Of a DNA stretch of 56,010 nt, positions 6,840-50,943 are shown one piece after another (position 1 is the first letter of the stretch; each line of letters begins with the position of its first letter). The stretch spans positions 1 to 56,010 of the forward strand of contig PXBH01000151.1 in NCBI GenBank assembly GCA_003565555.1, written 5' to 3'. Source of the stretch: Cryomorphaceae bacterium. GTDB taxonomy: Bacteria > Bacteroidota > Bacteroidia > Flavobacteriales_D > Cryomorphaceae. The notes beneath the pieces are model-generated. The model saw only the letters and a list, made by a program, of their open reading frames with translations, was not told the DNA's origin and did not search any database. The translations under genes were made by a program, and so were the position numbers.

Positions 6840-7467
6840 GGCATTGTCCGGGGCGGCGGCGGTTTTACTCTCCCTGCGCGCCGCAGCAGAGGGCGGGATA
6901 GACCGCGGCAAGTGGGAAGCCCTGCGCAAAGGGGTAGACTACAGTGAAACCCTTCCGGAACAGGCGGAGCAATCCGGCAGTTCCTTTTGGTGGATTGTAC
7001 TCGCCGACTTGCTCAAGTACGGGCTGGCACTCGTCATCATCGTAGGTCTCATATTTGCCGTAATCAAGCTGTTCGGGGCCGTGAAATTCACCTCAGGTAA
7101 AAGCGTCTTCGAAGAAGAGCCCATACCGGGCGAGGAGGCCAATGCGGCAGAGACACCCCTCTCCGCCCTGTACGCCGCTTTGGAGAAGGCCAAGGCAGAG
7201 GGCCGCTACCGCGAAGCCATACGGCTGCTTTATCAAATTGCCCTGAAAAAACTCGGTGAAGCGGGCAAGGTAGACCTCCGACCCGAAAAAACAAACCGGG
7301 ACTACCTCAACGAGCTGCGCGAGAAAGAAACGGCAGCCGCCTTCGGTCGCCTCACGCGGAGGTATGAGTACATCTGGTTCGGGGAGGGGCGTGCGGGGCG
7401 CCCGGAATTCGAAAAGTACGCGCCGCAATTCACCGAATTTATCAGCACTGCCGGCCGTGAAAAATAA
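6820..7467 (+). CDS. DUF4129 domain membrane protein
   Basis: The 215-residue protein has an N-terminal hydrophobic signal-like stretch, a transmembrane helix at about residues 57-85 (WWIVLADLLKYGLALVIIVG) and a cytoplasmic C-terminal region. The region includes EGRYREAIRLLYQIALKKL, followed by a conserved Y-x-W-FGEGRAGRPEF segment, as in DUF4129 proteins, which often resemble the C-terminal part of transglutaminase-like membrane proteins. Function is unknown. It starts within the SpoIIM-like gene and its end overlaps the GTG start of the DUF4350 gene by 11 bases, which implies translational coupling. Confidence 0.8.
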   Translation: MVWNVSKALSGAAAVLLSLRAAAEGGIDRGKWEALRKGVDYSETLPEQAEQSGSSFWWIVLADLLKYGLALVIIVGLIFAVIKLFGAVKFTSGKSVFEEEPIPGEEANAAETPLSALYAALEKAKAEGRYREAIRLLYQIALKKLGEAGKVDLRPEKTNRDYLNELREKETAAAFGRLTRRYEYIWFGEGRAGRPEFEKYAPQFTEFISTAGREK

Positions 7468-8701
7468 CCGAACCGCATATATCGTTACCGGCCTCGCCGT
7501 GCTGGGCGGTCTCTTTCTTTTTTGGTGGTTTTCCGAAAGGGATGCCCGCTACAACTGGAGCGAAACTTTCGAGACCGAAGGAGAAGAGCCCTACGATCTG
7601 AACATCTTCGCAGCCCTGCTGGAGGACTGGTTTCCCGAAAAGGGTTTTCACACCGTCACCGATTTCAAAACCGATACCGCCTATGCGGCTGCCGAGGGTG
7701 CCAACCTGATCTACATCGCGGGGCGCGCCTACATCGACTCTGCCGAAGCGGAACGGATCAAAGCATTTGCCGAGCGCGGCAACCGCGTTTTTATCAGCGC
7801 TGCAAACCAACATCTGCTCACAGATGAAGCCGCCGCCGCATGCGGAGCCACCGAACCCGGCAAGTGGTTGCAAAGAAGAAAGGCCAAGCGCGTCCGGCCC
7901 TACATCACCTTCGGAGTCGACAGCGCCTCCGCGGATTTTCATTATCAAGTAGCCGATAAGGTGCTGCGCTACCCCTGGGCGTATTTTGACCTCGAATGGT
8001 GTGAATCCGATGAAGTGCGTAAGGCCGGCGGCTTCGAAGCGGTGGACCGCGATTTCATCAACTACATCACCGTCAACGCCGGCGAGGGATTGATTATGCT
8101 GCATACTGTACCCCATATTTTTTCAAATTACCACATTATCCGCCCGGAGGTTCCCGATCATATAGAGGCCGTACTCGGACTCCTGAATGAAGGAGACATC
8201 TACTATGCAGACCTCCGATTCGAAACCGCGCGCCAACCCAACCGCCCCCTGCTTACCGAGAGTCCGCTCCGCTTTATTTTGGGAAATGAGTCGCTGCGAT
8301 GGGCTTGGTACATCACCCTCATTCTCGCGCTCATCTTCGTATTGAACGCCGTGCGGCGCAAGGAACGCAAGGTTCCCGTGATCATCCGTCCGGAAAACGA
8401 TACCTTGCGCTTCCTCGATGTCACCGCGCAGATGTACCGCAAGGAGGGCAAGCACAAGCATATCTTGGCATTACAGGCCAAGCTGCTCACCGAAAGGCTG
8501 AGGACGCGCTACGGCATTGTCAAACGATTTCCCGAAAAGGGCTATGCGGCAGAGGTGAGCTACAAACTCGATATGCCGCGGGAAGAGACCGAACGCTTCT
8601 TCATGCAGCTACATCGGGCCTCACACGACAGCACCCTCGAGGACAAAACATTTATCGAAACAGACCGAAAAATCACTGAATTTTACGCCAAATGTCCATA
8701 G
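7457..8701 (+). CDS. DUF4350 domain protein
   Basis: The protein is about 414 residues if translation begins at the GTG at 7457-7459 (VKNNRTAYIV...). That start puts a transmembrane helix (TGLAVLGGLFLFWWF) at the N-terminus and overlaps the DUF4129 gene by 11 bases. The longer frame from 7364 adds 31 low-quality residues antiparallel in style to nothing known. A globular domain follows (YDLNIFAALLEDWFPEKGF ... VFISAANQH), then a second helix near residue 290 (WAWYITLILALIFVLNAV) and a cytoplasmic tail. Members occur between DUF4129 and MoxR genes in Bacteroidota. No enzymatic motif is obvious. Confidence 0.8.
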   Translation: MKNNRTAYIVTGLAVLGGLFLFWWFSERDARYNWSETFETEGEEPYDLNIFAALLEDWFPEKGFHTVTDFKTDTAYAAAEGANLIYIAGRAYIDSAEAERIKAFAERGNRVFISAANQHLLTDEAAAACGATEPGKWLQRRKAKRVRPYITFGVDSASADFHYQVADKVLRYPWAYFDLEWCESDEVRKAGGFEAVDRDFINYITVNAGEGLIMLHTVPHIFSNYHIIRPEVPDHIEAVLGLLNEGDIYYADLRFETARQPNRPLLTESPLRFILGNESLRWAWYITLILALIFVLNAVRRKERKVPVIIRPENDTLRFLDVTAQMYRKEGKHKHILALQAKLLTERLRTRYGIVKRFPEKGYAAEVSYKLDMPREETERFFMQLHRASHDSTLEDKTFIETDRKITEFYAKCP

Positions 8702-47171: not shown

Positions 47172-48140
47172 TTAAAACTCGCTGATGAAGTAAAGCTTCG
47201 GCGACAAGCCGAATTCTTCCGCTGCTTCACTCGCCACGAAAACGCCGCCGTCCGGGGTGATTTTCACGCTCTCTACTTGTCCGAATTGAGCGAACGGGCC
47301 CATCACCAGTTGCTCCTTATCGCCCTCAAGAAAAGCGCCCGAAGGAAAATTCGATAATTTCCAAACGAAGCAGTTTCCGCTCCTTCGGTTGCCTGCGAGG
47401 GCCACAACTGCCCCGTCTGCGCTGATATCAGCCCCCGTGATGCGACCGCCCACCTCGAATCCGCCCAGCAATTCGGCATCGTGTACAGTGCCCGGCGTAT
47501 CGGGGATGCGGTACATATTTGTGCGCCGGTTTGAATTGTGTTTGGTGAAAAGATAAAGGTATCCGTTATACCAAAATGAGGCCTCGCAATCAAAATCATG
47601 GTTCTCTCCGCCGAAAACCGTTTGTTCGGGATAGCGAAAGGCAATGGTGGCATCTGCGTGAACCTCTCCCGATATACCGGGGTACAAATCATTTTTGGGA
47701 ACCCGATGGATGCCGAGGTCGGTTCGTATTCCGTCATTGTTTCCGAAATCCCCGATGAAGAGATAAGTTACGTTTGCAGCCAGGTCCTCCCAGTCTCTGT
47801 TCTCGACGTTTGTAACAGAAATTAAATGCTCCGGCTCGCCCGTATTCGGATTGATAAAGAAAAGATCGGGTGCATTGCCTCTGTCATTGTGCCCCACCAA
47901 AAAATCCTGAAATATTTCTAACCCTGAAATTTCGTTGAGCGCACCGTCTAATATCGCGACCGTTTCGACAGGCACCACCCTGCTCGGGTAATTGCAGTCT
48001 CGGTTACCGACGGCATCGGGAGCATAATTTAAGGCTGCGGGGTCATCGCACAGTACTTGCGGGGAATCATCCCCGTTGCAGGCTGCCAAAAGAAATAAAA
48101 GAAAGGAAAAGAGTGCGGCGCTGCGCAACTCAATTCTCAT
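47172..48140 (-). CDS. Surface lipoprotein with TSP3-like motif and beta-propeller-like domain
   Basis: Starting at 48140 gives 322 residues, with a lipoprotein signal (RSAALFSFLLFLLAACNGDD, cysteine 21). A short motif follows, CDDPAALNYAPDAVGNRDCN, resembling the repeated Cys/Asp 'DPxAxNYxPxA' calcium-binding units of Bacteroidota surface proteins. The rest has strand patterns (ISGLEIFQDFLVGHNDRGNA; ITGADISADGAVVALAGNRR) of a six- or seven-bladed propeller. It overlaps the DUF4956 gene by 11 bases and is the last gene of the operon. Function is unknown; surface exposure is inferred. Confidence 0.75.
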   Translation of the reverse strand: MRIELRSAALFSFLLFLLAACNGDDSPQVLCDDPAALNYAPDAVGNRDCNYPSRVVPVETVAILDGALNEISGLEIFQDFLVGHNDRGNAPDLFFINPNTGEPEHLISVTNVENRDWEDLAANVTYLFIGDFGNNDGIRTDLGIHRVPKNDLYPGISGEVHADATIAFRYPEQTVFGGENHDFDCEASFWYNGYLYLFTKHNSNRRTNMYRIPDTPGTVHDAELLGGFEVGGRITGADISADGAVVALAGNRRSGNCFVWKLSNFPSGAFLEGDKEQLVMGPFAQFGQVESVKITPDGGVFVASEAAEEFGLSPKLYFISEF

Positions 48141-48804
48141 CAAAAAACACATTGATGCTGTGCACGTGCGGAAGGGCATTGACTTGATTGGAGAATTCAC
48201 TGCTTCGCTTTTGACTTTTCAGTACAATATAGTAAGAGTATTCCTTTAAATTCTCCCCCGGCTCGCCTACCGATTTTATATTGACCAGCTTATATTTTGA
48301 GCAGTATCTGCGAAAGACCCGAAAAAGTTCTTTTTCAGGCTCTTCTGCATTTTTATAGACCACCTGTACCAAGTATTCACGCTTTACCGGGGTGGCCTCA
48401 TTGAGAACGGAAGCCAAGTAAATGACGACGCCTATAAACAAAGTCCCCACGCCCGAAATAAGGTGCATGCCCGCTCCTGCAGCCAGTCCCGCAGCCAAGG
48501 CAAAGAAGATGAACATGATGTCCTGGGTATCTTTTACGGCCGTTCTGAAGCGGATTATGGACATGGCCCCGACCAATCCGAAAGCGCGCGCGAGGTTATT
48601 TCCGATTACCATAATGACAAGCGCCGTAATCATAGTGAGCATGACCAGAGAAACCACATAAGTCCCGGAATAACTGATTCCCGTATATGTGGTGCGGTAA
48701 AGAATGCCGATAAAAATACCCGTGAGAAGGGCCGCCGTAAGGTTGATCAGGGCCTCTTCCGGCGTAAGGCTGAATTGGAAAAAATTTTGGAATTCATTGA
48801 CCAT
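48130..48804 (-). CDS. DUF4956 membrane protein
   Basis: The 224-residue protein has about four membrane helices in the first 130 residues, including the conserved ARAFGLVGAMSIIRFRTAVK loop and DTQDIMFIFFALAAGLAAG, followed by a cytoplasmic ferredoxin-like domain (EYLVQVVYKNAEEPEKELFR). DUF4956 genes are often found next to VTC-type polyphosphate polymerase genes. Here the VTC gene lies one base upstream. A role in polyphosphate handling at the membrane is inferred from this pairing, not seen. Confidence 0.9.
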   Translation of the reverse strand: MVNEFQNFFQFSLTPEEALINLTAALLTGIFIGILYRTTYTGISYSGTYVVSLVMLTMITALVIMVIGNNLARAFGLVGAMSIIRFRTAVKDTQDIMFIFFALAAGLAAGAGMHLISGVGTLFIGVVIYLASVLNEATPVKREYLVQVVYKNAEEPEKELFRVFRRYCSKYKLVNIKSVGEPGENLKEYSYYIVLKSQKRSSEFSNQVNALPHVHSINVFFDEN

Positions 48805-48805
48805 T

Positions 48806-49555
48806 TCAGCCGCCTATTTTGATGTTGAAAACAGAGATATCCTTTCTTTCAAAAGGCGTTGCAAATTTGGATAAGGCCTCGTGCCTTAGTCCGAATTCCT
48901 GCACCACACTCCGGGCCCAAGTGGGCATTTTGTTCTCAAAATATTTGATTTCAAGAATAAAAAAATCCTTCCATACCAGGCGCAGGCCCGAATTGGTATA
49001 CAGATCCTTCAGTGAGGGCCACATTTTGCAACGTATATTTTTGTCGAAAGTGATCCGCACTCCGGGATCAAACTTACCGTGAAAAGGTTCGCGATCGTAC
49101 ACGATGAGGTTAACGGGCCTGTATCCGTATCGGTAGAGATTGAACAGAAACTTCCGGGCATCCTCCTCATTTCGTCCCTTCACGTTTTTGCCTGCCCCGT
49201 TGGCGAATCCTGTATTCAGCAGCTCGTGCACGTCATTGTAGCTGACTTGTGCGCGATTTTTCCAAATGCGATCGCCGAGTTTTCTTTTAATCTCTAAAAA
49301 CACCATACTGTCAGCTTGCTGCCGGTCGTAGCCCCTTATGCGTAATTTTTTGCGTACTTCCACCCCCTCCCACTTCTCGTAAAGGGAATTGAACTCCGGA
49401 GTATCGTAATAGACGCTGCGGACGGTGTATTGATAAAGTCCTTTTTCATTGATCGGAGCAAAGGTATCCGGGCGCAAAAAGGGTTTGATCCGCGTGCGCA
49501 GCTCATCGAGTCGTTCGTTGGGCACCAAGTATTTTCTTTCGTACCTGTACTTCAT
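48806..49555 (-). CDS. VTC domain polyphosphate polymerase-like protein
   Basis: The 249-residue protein has the VTC/CYTH-like tunnel fold pattern: YRYERKYLVP at the N-terminus, VRSVYYDTPEFNSLYEKWEG, the basic strand VRKKLRIRGY, FLEIKRK, and VRITFDKNIRCK near 170. Near the C-terminus LEIKYFENKMPTWARSVVQE carries the lysine and glutamate expected to bind polyphosphate. Yeast Vtc4 homologues make polyphosphate from ATP. There are no membrane helices here; the DUF4956 partner supplies them. It overlaps the HlyD-like gene by four bases. Confidence 0.88.
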   Translation of the reverse strand: MKYRYERKYLVPNERLDELRTRIKPFLRPDTFAPINEKGLYQYTVRSVYYDTPEFNSLYEKWEGVEVRKKLRIRGYDRQQADSMVFLEIKRKLGDRIWKNRAQVSYNDVHELLNTGFANGAGKNVKGRNEEDARKFLFNLYRYGYRPVNLIVYDREPFHGKFDPGVRITFDKNIRCKMWPSLKDLYTNSGLRLVWKDFFILEIKYFENKMPTWARSVVQEFGLRHEALSKFATPFERKDISVFNIKIGG

Positions 49556-50616
49556 GCCATGGGCGTTGTAGACATTCTGAAGCGCCGGATGAGCAAATCA
49601 AAGAGACTCACTTCATCACACATCAACTTCACCTCCATTACCGAACCGAGTTTTATTTCAGAATTATAAGGCCAGACTGCGGTCACAAAAAATGCCTGTC
49701 GGTTATCGACAAATTTCACAACGTCATCAATGGCGACGACATCTCCGCGATGGCTCGAAAACCAAGCCTCCGATCCCTGCTGCACATAATCAAAATCAGA
49801 GAGAAGTACAGGCATCACCCCTACCGTTTTCGAAGTGTCCATAATGGTCAGAATCTTCTCTGAACCCGATGAACGCGGAAACTGAAGTCTGCCGGAGAAC
49901 GGCGCGGTGATGGTGAAATAATTCAGTCGGCTCTCAATTTGAGAAATTTGTCGGGAAAGTGCCTCTATTCGCGCCCTTACAAGCTTCTCTTGCTCCGGTT
50001 TCTCACCGGTGGTCACGGAAAGATAATTGGCTTTGGCGATCTTCTCTTCGAGCTCTTTAACCATAAGCCTGTTCTCTTCGATCTCGAACTCCTGATCAGA
50101 AATTACTCCGTCTTTAATCAAGGTTCGCGTCCTCGCCATCAATTTCTTTTGCGTTTCAAGCTCTTGTTTGGCCAAGTCCCACTGCTCTAAGGCGAGCAAA
50201 ACATCTTCAGGCTTTTGGCCCGTAGTATGAAATTCGAGTTGGGCCCAGAGTACCTCGAGCTGACCTTTAAGCTGAATCAGATTGTGCTGTTCTTCGTTTG
50301 AAGAAATATATCCCAAGGTATCTCCTCGGCTTATGTAGCGCCGGCCTGTCAGCTCGGGATTCAATCTGAACTCGACAACATCACCCCTTTGAAACTCGGT
50401 CACATCGTAGTTTGAGGTCGTATTGTACACGTTGTCTCTCAGGGTAGAAACGAGGTTCCCTTCCAAAGTTCGGATGAGGGTGTATTCACTGCCCGCCATG
50501 AACATTCCCTTGCCCTTTACGGCATAGGTCACGGTCACTTGGGTGGATATTGCGATCAGGCCGATCAAAATGATCGAAAAAATCAACCAAGTTTTATACT
50601 TCTTCTGCAGGTTCAA
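49552..50616 (-). CDS. HlyD/membrane-fusion-type protein
   Basis: The 354-residue protein has one N-terminal membrane helix (TWLIFSIILIGLIAISTQVT) and a periplasmic part with two helical hairpins (about 110-230, KGQLEVLWAQLEFHTTGQKP then QWDLAKQELETQKKLMARTR), followed by the lipoyl-like FTITAPFSGRLQFPRS strand and a beta-barrel region. This is the architecture of HlyD/AcrA adaptors, but no ABC or RND pump gene is adjacent. It is the first gene of the HlyD-VTC-DUF4956-lipoprotein operon and has a promoter at 50649-50680. Confidence 0.88.
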   Translation of the reverse strand: MNLQKKYKTWLIFSIILIGLIAISTQVTVTYAVKGKGMFMAGSEYTLIRTLEGNLVSTLRDNVYNTTSNYDVTEFQRGDVVEFRLNPELTGRRYISRGDTLGYISSNEEQHNLIQLKGQLEVLWAQLEFHTTGQKPEDVLLALEQWDLAKQELETQKKLMARTRTLIKDGVISDQEFEIEENRLMVKELEEKIAKANYLSVTTGEKPEQEKLVRARIEALSRQISQIESRLNYFTITAPFSGRLQFPRSSGSEKILTIMDTSKTVGVMPVLLSDFDYVQQGSEAWFSSHRGDVVAIDDVVKFVDNRQAFFVTAVWPYNSEIKLGSVMEVKLMCDEVSLFDLLIRRFRMSTTPMA

Positions 50617-50943
50617 GGGAATCTGATTAAATAAATTTTCAGCGGGAGCGAAGTTAAAAAATTATTAAATGTTCAACAAAGGATCAATTAGCTTGCAAAT
50701 TGTTGATTATCATTAAAAAAAACACGGCACACGAATGTTGCCCGGCATGGGTGTGGCTTCATAACGCGAACCAATTTTTACAGTTCGGCTCGGGGAGCGC
50801 GTTTAAGATTTCATTACGGCATACAAGGCTTTTGGTTGCCCGAAGCCGTTAGTTTTCTCAGAATCGGACAAAAGCAGCTTCATCTGATGGCTTTTCGAGG
50901 AAACGAAGGTGCAGGGCTGACGCTTATTCTGCATCAGCATGTT
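50617..50943. other. Intergenic region, AT-rich near the HlyD promoter
   Basis: This 327-base gap lies between two minus-strand operons. It holds the HlyD promoter and, beyond 50690, no recognisable gene, repeat or clear terminator. A plus-strand frame that starts at 50836 runs antisense into the lysoplasmalogenase gene and is not considered coding. Confidence 0.6.
50649..50680 (-). promoter_or_regulatory. Promoter of the HlyD-VTC-DUF4956-lipoprotein operon
   Basis: The minus strand reads TTTG (50677-50680), 20 bases, TAACTTCG (50649-50656; one mismatch to TAnnTTTG), followed by a leader of roughly 30 bases. Confidence 0.6.

Follow-up and report, generated by a model that had tools for sequence, protein, structure and literature searches.

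Gene content and operon layout

The window, a 56,010-nt stretch of the source contig, carries four tightly packed genes on the minus strand, encoding in order an HlyD-like adaptor, a VTC polyphosphate polymerase, a DUF4956 membrane protein and a propeller lipoprotein (Table 1). The coordinates agree with the sequence-only reading, in which these genes were described as overlapping or one base apart; for the lipoprotein, an ATG at 48140 was preferred over a GTG at 48200 as the start. A single promoter common to the four genes, as claimed earlier, is plausible: 327 nt of free space precede the adaptor gene, but a sigma-70 site search in this space found none better than chance. The operon contains no pump gene, and no TolC gene is linked to it within the window.

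Table 1 Genes and features of the operon (positions in the window).
Feature	Position	Strand	Remarks
HlyD-like adaptor	49552..50616	-	TTG start, 354 aa
VTC polyphosphate polymerase	48806..49555	-	249 aa; 4-bp overlap with HlyD-like gene
DUF4956 integral membrane protein	48130..48804	-	224 aa; 1-bp gap after VTC
Surface-type lipoprotein	47172..48140	-	322 aa; 11-bp overlap with DUF4956
Intergenic region 5' of operon, likely promoter region	50617..50943	-	Between the upstream gene's stop (50944) and the adaptor start
Hairpin-tip RxxxLxxxxxxS, TolC-docking RLS motif (R162, L166, S173)	50098..50133	-	Family alignment
Span with paired mid-hairpin G-x-K motifs (G133/K135, G204/K206), symmetrical about the tip	49999..50214	-	Alignment and model
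Strongly conserved DUF4956 motif GNNLARAFGLVGAMSIIRFRT	48541..48603	-	R85 and R87 invariant, R73 nearly; 32-member alignment

The adaptor consists of one N-terminal TM helix, lipoyl/beta-barrel regions and a long split alpha-hairpin. Its sequence matched NCBIfam adaptor models alone, all below their cut-offs (RND_mfp, 2.7e-7; PRK03598 HlyD, 1.6e-8), and its sequence profile matched AcrA, MacA and EmrA structures. The same three proteins were recovered by Foldseek with the AlphaFold model (pLDDT 89.9), MacA giving the best E-value (4e-14) and TM-scores by query ranging from 0.3 to 0.47, and the adaptor-protein fold, with its hairpin, lipoyl and beta-barrel parts, is present in this predicted structure. 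The RLS tip motif, as defined in PMC3391258, was found among aligned family members with R in 111/111, L in 104/111 and S in 83/111. Halfway along the hairpin, the paired G-x-K motifs were similarly conserved (n = 112; G133 in 103, K135 in 101 plus 7 with R, G204 in 108, K206 in 102 plus 4 with R), and the modelled helices break at both of them; the paired lysines may form a basic ring.

The VTC protein matched PF09359 (7.8e-37, 127.5 bits versus a cut-off of 23) and is cytosolic, with no TM segment. Alignment to 3g3q/8i6v placed ten Vtc4 tunnel residues (K200, R264, R266, K281, K294, R361, R373, E426, K428 and K458) at K8, R72, R74, K90, K99, R155, R167, E202, K204 and K230, respectively, all of them invariant in the 111/111 aligned VTC members; Vtc4 K455 was not conserved. 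Combined mutation of R264, R266 and E426 renders Vtc4 inactive (PMC9911596). The alignment to the yeast enzyme bears out the earlier statement that the basic strand and the C-terminal LEIKY segment are intact, and none of the ten tunnel residues, whose absence had been named as an argument against the module, is missing. VTCs linked to HlyD group together in a single clade (SH-aLRT 98). PPK1 is also encoded in the window genome, so that VTC is not required for ordinary cytosolic polyphosphate.

The DUF4956 protein matched PF16316 (6.5e-18, 65.5 bits versus a cut-off of 30.6). It also resembles MgtC/SapB proteins through a weak sequence match (PRK09977 of NCBIfam, 5e-4 and 19.7 bits, far below the cut-off of 214; Pfam MgtC, 10.6 bits, below the cut-off of 31.4) and through a C-terminal ACT-like domain whose fold is similar to the MgtC C-terminal domains 2LQJ and 7QA5; as the curated cut-offs are missed, this is a similarity of fold alone and not family membership. 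We know of no case in which MgtC is linked to VTC or to adaptors. PDB searches by phmmer with the single VTC and DUF4956 sequences returned no matches, profiles being needed to obtain them, and the membrane part of DUF4956 has no solved homologue. We propose, as an assumption of the model developed below, that DUF4956 forms an inner-membrane channel or pore, which would suggest a role for a widespread family without an assigned function.

The lipoprotein has a lipobox (FLLAAC, C21), a short N-terminal Cys-rich repeat and a beta-propeller-like domain, the propeller fold being suggested by remote similarity. Relatives in its family (A8) share invariant acidic residues and are either lipoproteins or carry a T9SS-type C-terminal extension. 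The TSP3 label given earlier to the Cys-rich repeat is a judgement by eye, and the protein has no match in Pfam or NCBIfam. The phytase-like/SdiA-regulated propeller PF13449 was matched weakly by 4 of 15 relatives (best 0.006); an identity as phytase or SdiA is not supported, the window protein itself having no family match.

Conserved linkage of adaptor, polymerase and DUF4956

Among 395 genomes of the phylum, the adaptor gene lies directly upstream of the VTC-DUF4956 pair for 28 of the 29 full-length members of its HlyD family. A scan seeded with DUF4956 recovered the order HlyD, VTC, DUF4956 in 80/80 loci from several phyla of the Bacteroidota/FCB group, a set made up of the best-scoring loci only, chosen by similarity to HlyD-linked DUF4956s, with about 470 lower-ranked relatives outside it. 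Cultured species that carry the operon include Alkaliflexus imshenetskii, Natronoflexus pectinivorans, Lunatimonas lonarensis and Belliella buryatensis. In the reverse scan, the top 28 VTC matches (at least 240 bits) were all HlyD-linked. A second, distant HlyD subfamily adjoins the pair in another order, following VTC and DUF4956, in all ten loci examined. Among the operon neighbours of relatives, we recognised no exporter of the ABC, RND or MFS type, one of the neighbour surveys covering the best 25 of 58 families. Overall, there is strong support for the claim that VTC-DUF4956 and an HlyD-type adaptor, without an ABC or RND pump, make up a conserved gene module. The proposed co-occurrence of four families proved very strong for three genes and moderate for the fourth, and the four-gene module is better described as a three-gene core, HlyD, VTC and DUF4956, to which the lipoprotein is an optional and TolC, elsewhere, a recurrent addition. 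In 15 loci the product of the fourth gene is a propeller, whose place is often taken elsewhere by CotH kinases or SdiA-regulated propellers. We found no description of this module in the open-access papers searched, subscription papers and preprints being outside that search.

The adaptor is not a constant companion of the pair. Within the taxonomic order, 83 other loci of VTC-DUF4956 type have no adaptor within the stretch read (79 of the common type and 4 of the CotH type), and we therefore rejected the idea that every such pair uses one; these loci retain the same catalytic residues, and VTC-DUF4956 can thus work without the adaptor.

A same-strand gene for a TolC-type channel directly follows the operon in 7 of the 80 loci and in one other (L149), a distribution that takes at least four changes on the tree; a Sporocytophaga-type locus (L250) is one example with such an operonic TolC. 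The nearest gene of this TolC subfamily in the window genome (G000:C231) scored 298 bits against the operonic TolC profile. It adjoins another adaptor, and the profile found matches in all 395 genomes searched, many nearly as strong, so this gene gives no specific support and was dropped as the operon's own TolC partner.

A candidate polymerase-driven exporter

HlyD-type adaptors are tube-like proteins that are ordinarily part of drug pumps, and those linked to TolC have been described with ABC, RND or MFS pumps. We suggest, with a probability of roughly 0.5, that the operon specifies a tripartite exporter driven by its polymerase, in which VTC makes polyphosphate, DUF4956 passes it across the inner membrane and the adaptor delivers it to TolC. 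The conserved residues strongly support a first step in which cytosolic VTC would build polyphosphate from the gamma-phosphate of ATP. The growing chain may then be fed, as the analogy with the yeast VTC complex suggests, into a DUF4956 pore, MgtC-like and bearing the invariant arginines, whose ACT-like domain could sense or regulate. The adaptor would cross the periplasm and dock a TolC-family outer-membrane channel, releasing the chain directly to the outside, as the conserved linkage, the RLS tip and the operonic TolC genes of other loci suggest; polymerisation would then drive export in place of an ABC, RND or MFS pump. Both polyphosphate as the cargo and its transport are inferred, and for the idea of movement through the envelope the RLS tip and the eight operonic TolC genes offer independent support. 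In the weakest step, the propeller lipoprotein may bind, trim or use the polymer once it has reached the cell surface, a role that CotH kinases and SdiA-regulated propellers might fill in other species. To our knowledge, there is no settled answer as to how bacterial polyphosphate reaches the cell exterior, and the adaptor-VTC-DUF4956 module, which is conserved and in some operons joined by TolC, is a concrete candidate for this export. More tentatively, and with the odds somewhat against it, the module may define a trans-envelope exporter of a new class, where synthesis by VTC pushes polyphosphate through the DUF4956 pore and an HlyD-TolC conduit to surface propellers or CotH kinases that use it, possibly as an extracellular source of energy or phosphate.

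Similar to the yeast polyphosphate polymerase-translocase (Vtc1/Vtc3/Vtc4), the proposed system has a VTC catalytic domain with the ten tunnel residues and plausibly couples synthesis to translocation by a membrane partner (PMC9911596); however, the window VTC has neither an SPX domain nor fused TM helices, DUF4956 would serve as the membrane partner, and the system further includes an adaptor directed at the outer membrane. With MacAB-TolC, EmrAB-TolC, AcrAB-TolC and the type I secretion system HlyBD-TolC it shares the adaptor fold, the N-terminal membrane anchor, the RLS tip and sometimes an operonic TolC, whereas a polymerase and DUF4956 replace the ABC, MFS or RND pump and the hairpin is split by the G-x-K motifs. 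In synthase-dependent exopolysaccharide secretion (e.g. of cellulose), synthesis likewise drives the export of a long polymer, but here the polymer would be inorganic, and the enzyme and the outer-membrane route differ. Gram-positive pel clusters carry cotH, polyphosphate polymerase and DUF4956 as accessory genes, with the same adjoining pair together with CotH, but in single-membrane hosts and with no adaptor or TolC described (PMC7112168); in the HlyD-VTC-DUF4956 loci the adaptor is constant and no pel genes were seen.

An alternative explanation, which we consider unlikely, is that DUF4956, HlyD and TolC export another cargo (a protein, glycan or ion), with VTC merely energising or regulating the process, e.g. 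through a phosphate compound to which the ACT-like domain responds. One complete genome (G263) retains HlyD, DUF4956 and TolC in this order and lacks VTC altogether, which points to DUF4956 as the adaptor's likely inner-membrane partner and means that the cargo in that genome cannot be a VTC-made polymer; moreover, neither an ACT-like domain nor an MgtC-like body is known from a polymer channel. However, the DUF4956 of this genome is strongly diverged (branch 1.58) and may have changed its cargo, and every other locus has VTC, with catalytic residues that never vary. Still less probable, in our view, is an adaptor that only scaffolds or caps a VTC-DUF4956 complex of the inner membrane from the periplasmic side, with polyphosphate kept in the periplasm and TolC uninvolved. 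Gram-positive adaptors do exist where docking to TolC is impossible (PMC4446572), and most loci have no TolC gene, but the tip is retained, its arginine without exception, and TolC genes entered the operon in several lineages.

Exported polyphosphate might also serve chemistry at the cell surface as a donor or reserve of phosphate, above all for CotH-type kinases, which are T9SS-displayed or lipoproteins and have no ATP outside the cell; we rate this about as improbable as the scaffold. CotH genes lie within about five genes of 28/80 and 9/29 loci, with 27 operonic CotH genes, and they also stand beside VTC-DUF4956 pairs without HlyD and in the Gram-positive pel clusters (PMC7112168). There are 12 CotH matches in the window genome, but none of these genes is on the window contig, two thirds of the loci have no nearby CotH, and use of polyphosphate by CotH is not known. 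A donor role would make polyphosphate a possible phosphate source for surface CotH kinases, and it extends the polymerase-driven exporter, our best explanation, and does not replace it.

The adaptor-VTC-DUF4956 core

The operon comprises four closely packed genes (see table), preceded by 327 gene-free bases, and one promoter is likely common to all four. Besides VTC (a polyphosphate polymerase family), the genome carries one copy of PPK1.

Genes of the operon in the window
Gene	Coordinates	Strand	Remarks
HlyD-like adaptor	50616-49552	minus	4 bp overlap with VTC gene; NCBIfam adaptor models only, below cut-offs
VTC	49555-48806	minus	above Pfam cut-off
DUF4956	48804-48130	minus	1 bp after VTC; above Pfam cut-off
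Lipoprotein	best start 48140, end 47172	minus	11 bp overlap with DUF4956; no family match

An adaptor profile that clearly set generic adaptors apart from family members retrieved 29 full-length members besides the window's from 395 Bacteroidota-phylum genomes, and 28 of them immediately precede VTC and DUF4956, including locus L176, where the open frame is over-long, and locus L177. At the latter (7202-7903 and following, genome G285), the adaptor gene is in two open frames of 233 and 95 aa, possibly through a frameshift or sequencing error. The sole exception is genome G263, with the order HlyD>DUF4956>TolC and VTC absent from the complete genome; in this operon (L149, 5932-9200), DUF4956 is highly diverged. 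A reverse search of the same genomes with a VTC profile gave 28 matches of at least 240 bits, all of them HlyD-linked loci, and in a tree the HlyD-linked VTCs formed one side of a branch (SH-aLRT 98) against 83 other VTCs.

A DUF4956-seeded scan of 84,980 species genomes found HlyD>VTC>DUF4956 in all of the best 80 of at least 557 relatives, which is not an unbiased rate because loci were picked by similarity and some are near-duplicates (L170/L258, L226/L231). These loci belong to Bacteroidota, Ignavibacteriota, Chlorobiota, Neomarinimicrobiota (Fidelibacterota), Zixibacteria, Calditrichota and Latescibacterota. Many carriers (L182-L261) seem to be soda-lake organisms or haloalkaliphiles, judging from names and general knowledge; sample prefixes CSSed and T3Sed and Lunatimonas, Alkaliflexus, Natronoflexus, Alkalitalea and Belliella buryatensis occur among them.

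The fourth gene and surface proteins

The sequence-only reading had proposed a four-gene envelope module. In a survey of the window's genome together with relatives, most of them from its order (100 genomes in all), VTC was present in 85, and a same-strand DUF4956 lies within 150 nt of VTC in 86 of the 89 VTC loci read, with the window's adaptor and lipoprotein (propeller) families at just six of these loci. Three, all in the window's genus, read HlyD>VTC>DUF4956>lipoprotein, and the other three, in another family, propeller>HlyD>VTC>DUF4956. The same four families in permuted order argue for a functional group. The conserved core is three genes. The propeller protein of the second lineage lacks a lipobox and has a C-terminal extension resembling, by eye, a T9SS sorting domain, a tail matched by Pfam in only 1 or 2 of 15 family members; the protein appears to be sent to the cell surface in both lineages, by different routes.

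Overall, the propeller family accompanies the triad in 15 loci, on either side, and SdiA-regulated propellers are five further neighbours. CotH kinases, of which many bear a T9SS tail, are no more than about five genes away in 28/80 and 9/29 loci. The operonic CotH genes number 27, versus 12 CotH matches in the entire window genome. Surface proteins are therefore the triad's recurring company. In a group of Bacteroidales (L193, L197, L217, L219, L238), the gene after the triad encodes AnmK (anhydro-N-acetylmuramic acid kinase).

Catalytic residues, TolC-docking tip and proposed export

The VTC protein aligned to yeast Vtc4 structures (3g3q, 1.1e-16). Vtc4 K200, R264, R266, K281, K294, R361, R373, E426, K428 and K458 (counted by hand on 8i6v_E) correspond to K8, R72, R74, K90, K99, R155, R167, E202, K204 and K230 in the window, all invariant in 111 sequences; Vtc4 is inactivated by R264A/R266A/E426N (PMC9911596). 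We infer that the product of this VTC family is polyphosphate.

The adaptor tip reads RxxxLxxxxxxS (R162 in 111/111, L166 in 104/111, S173 in 83/111), which is the RLS motif by which AcrA, MacA and MexA dock TolC (PMC3391258); in the profile alignment it falls on the tip region of AcrA/MacA. A TolC-family gene (PF02321) directly follows DUF4956 on the same strand in 7/80 loci and in G263, with at least four changes of this trait on the DUF4956 tree. The window genome has about eight TolC-family proteins in 3.7 Mb, roughly 0.25% of genes, so among 112 cases chance adjacency would yield well under one. In the best 25 of 58 families among 55 further operonic neighbours, no ABC, RND or MFS exporter was evident, and a motif search turned up only isolated ATPases, few in number and including ABC-F proteins. 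In one genus (L169, L171, L172), a 738-741 aa protein follows the triad, with a weak, below-cut-off MFS match in L171.

With linkage and catalytic residues conserved, a TolC-docking tip, operonic TolC genes and no recognised pump, the most likely mechanism is synthesis-driven polyphosphate export, in which the polymer made by VTC would pass through DUF4956, then via the adaptor to TolC, and be used at the surface. Structure prediction gives DUF4956 five main helices and, at the C-terminus, an ACT-like domain resembling the C-terminal domains of MgtC (overall pTM only 0.58); the central motif, GNNLARAFGLVGAMSIIRFRT, hardly varies. The protein may be the pore, in analogy to the basic channel that yeast VTC has. 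The adaptor hairpin is interrupted half-way by paired G-x-K motifs, whose K135 and K206 (kept in about 90%) could line the bore of an adaptor hexamer with a basic ring.

The main rivals are that another cargo is exported with VTC as helper, that the adaptor is a periplasmic scaffold working without TolC, or that the triad is a donor system for surface kinases. The retained docking tip and the operonic TolC genes of several lineages speak against the scaffold. G263, keeping adaptor, DUF4956 and TolC without any VTC, favours another cargo.

Other VTC-DUF4956 arrangements

VTC matches of a lower tier (~159-183 bits), which come from three further families within the phylum, show the order VTC>DUF4956>HlyD, the adaptor starting -25 to +4 nt from DUF4956 in 10/10 loci examined. 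This adaptor is a distant subfamily (profile-profile probability 99.4), mostly with the tip motif by eye; two adaptor kinds are thus linked to VTC-DUF4956, in two orders. The order's common VTC-DUF4956 pair can also sit in another operon (L053, L098, L104 and similar), comprising a CotH with T9SS tail, two small genes, VTC, DUF4956 and DUF2490, where VTC keeps the full set of Vtc4 catalytic residues. A third VTC type (L101, L107, L117, L046, L270, L272) adjoins DUF4956 without an adaptor, mostly with a CotH protein, which at L101 and L117 is a lipoprotein-like form of 975-995 aa.
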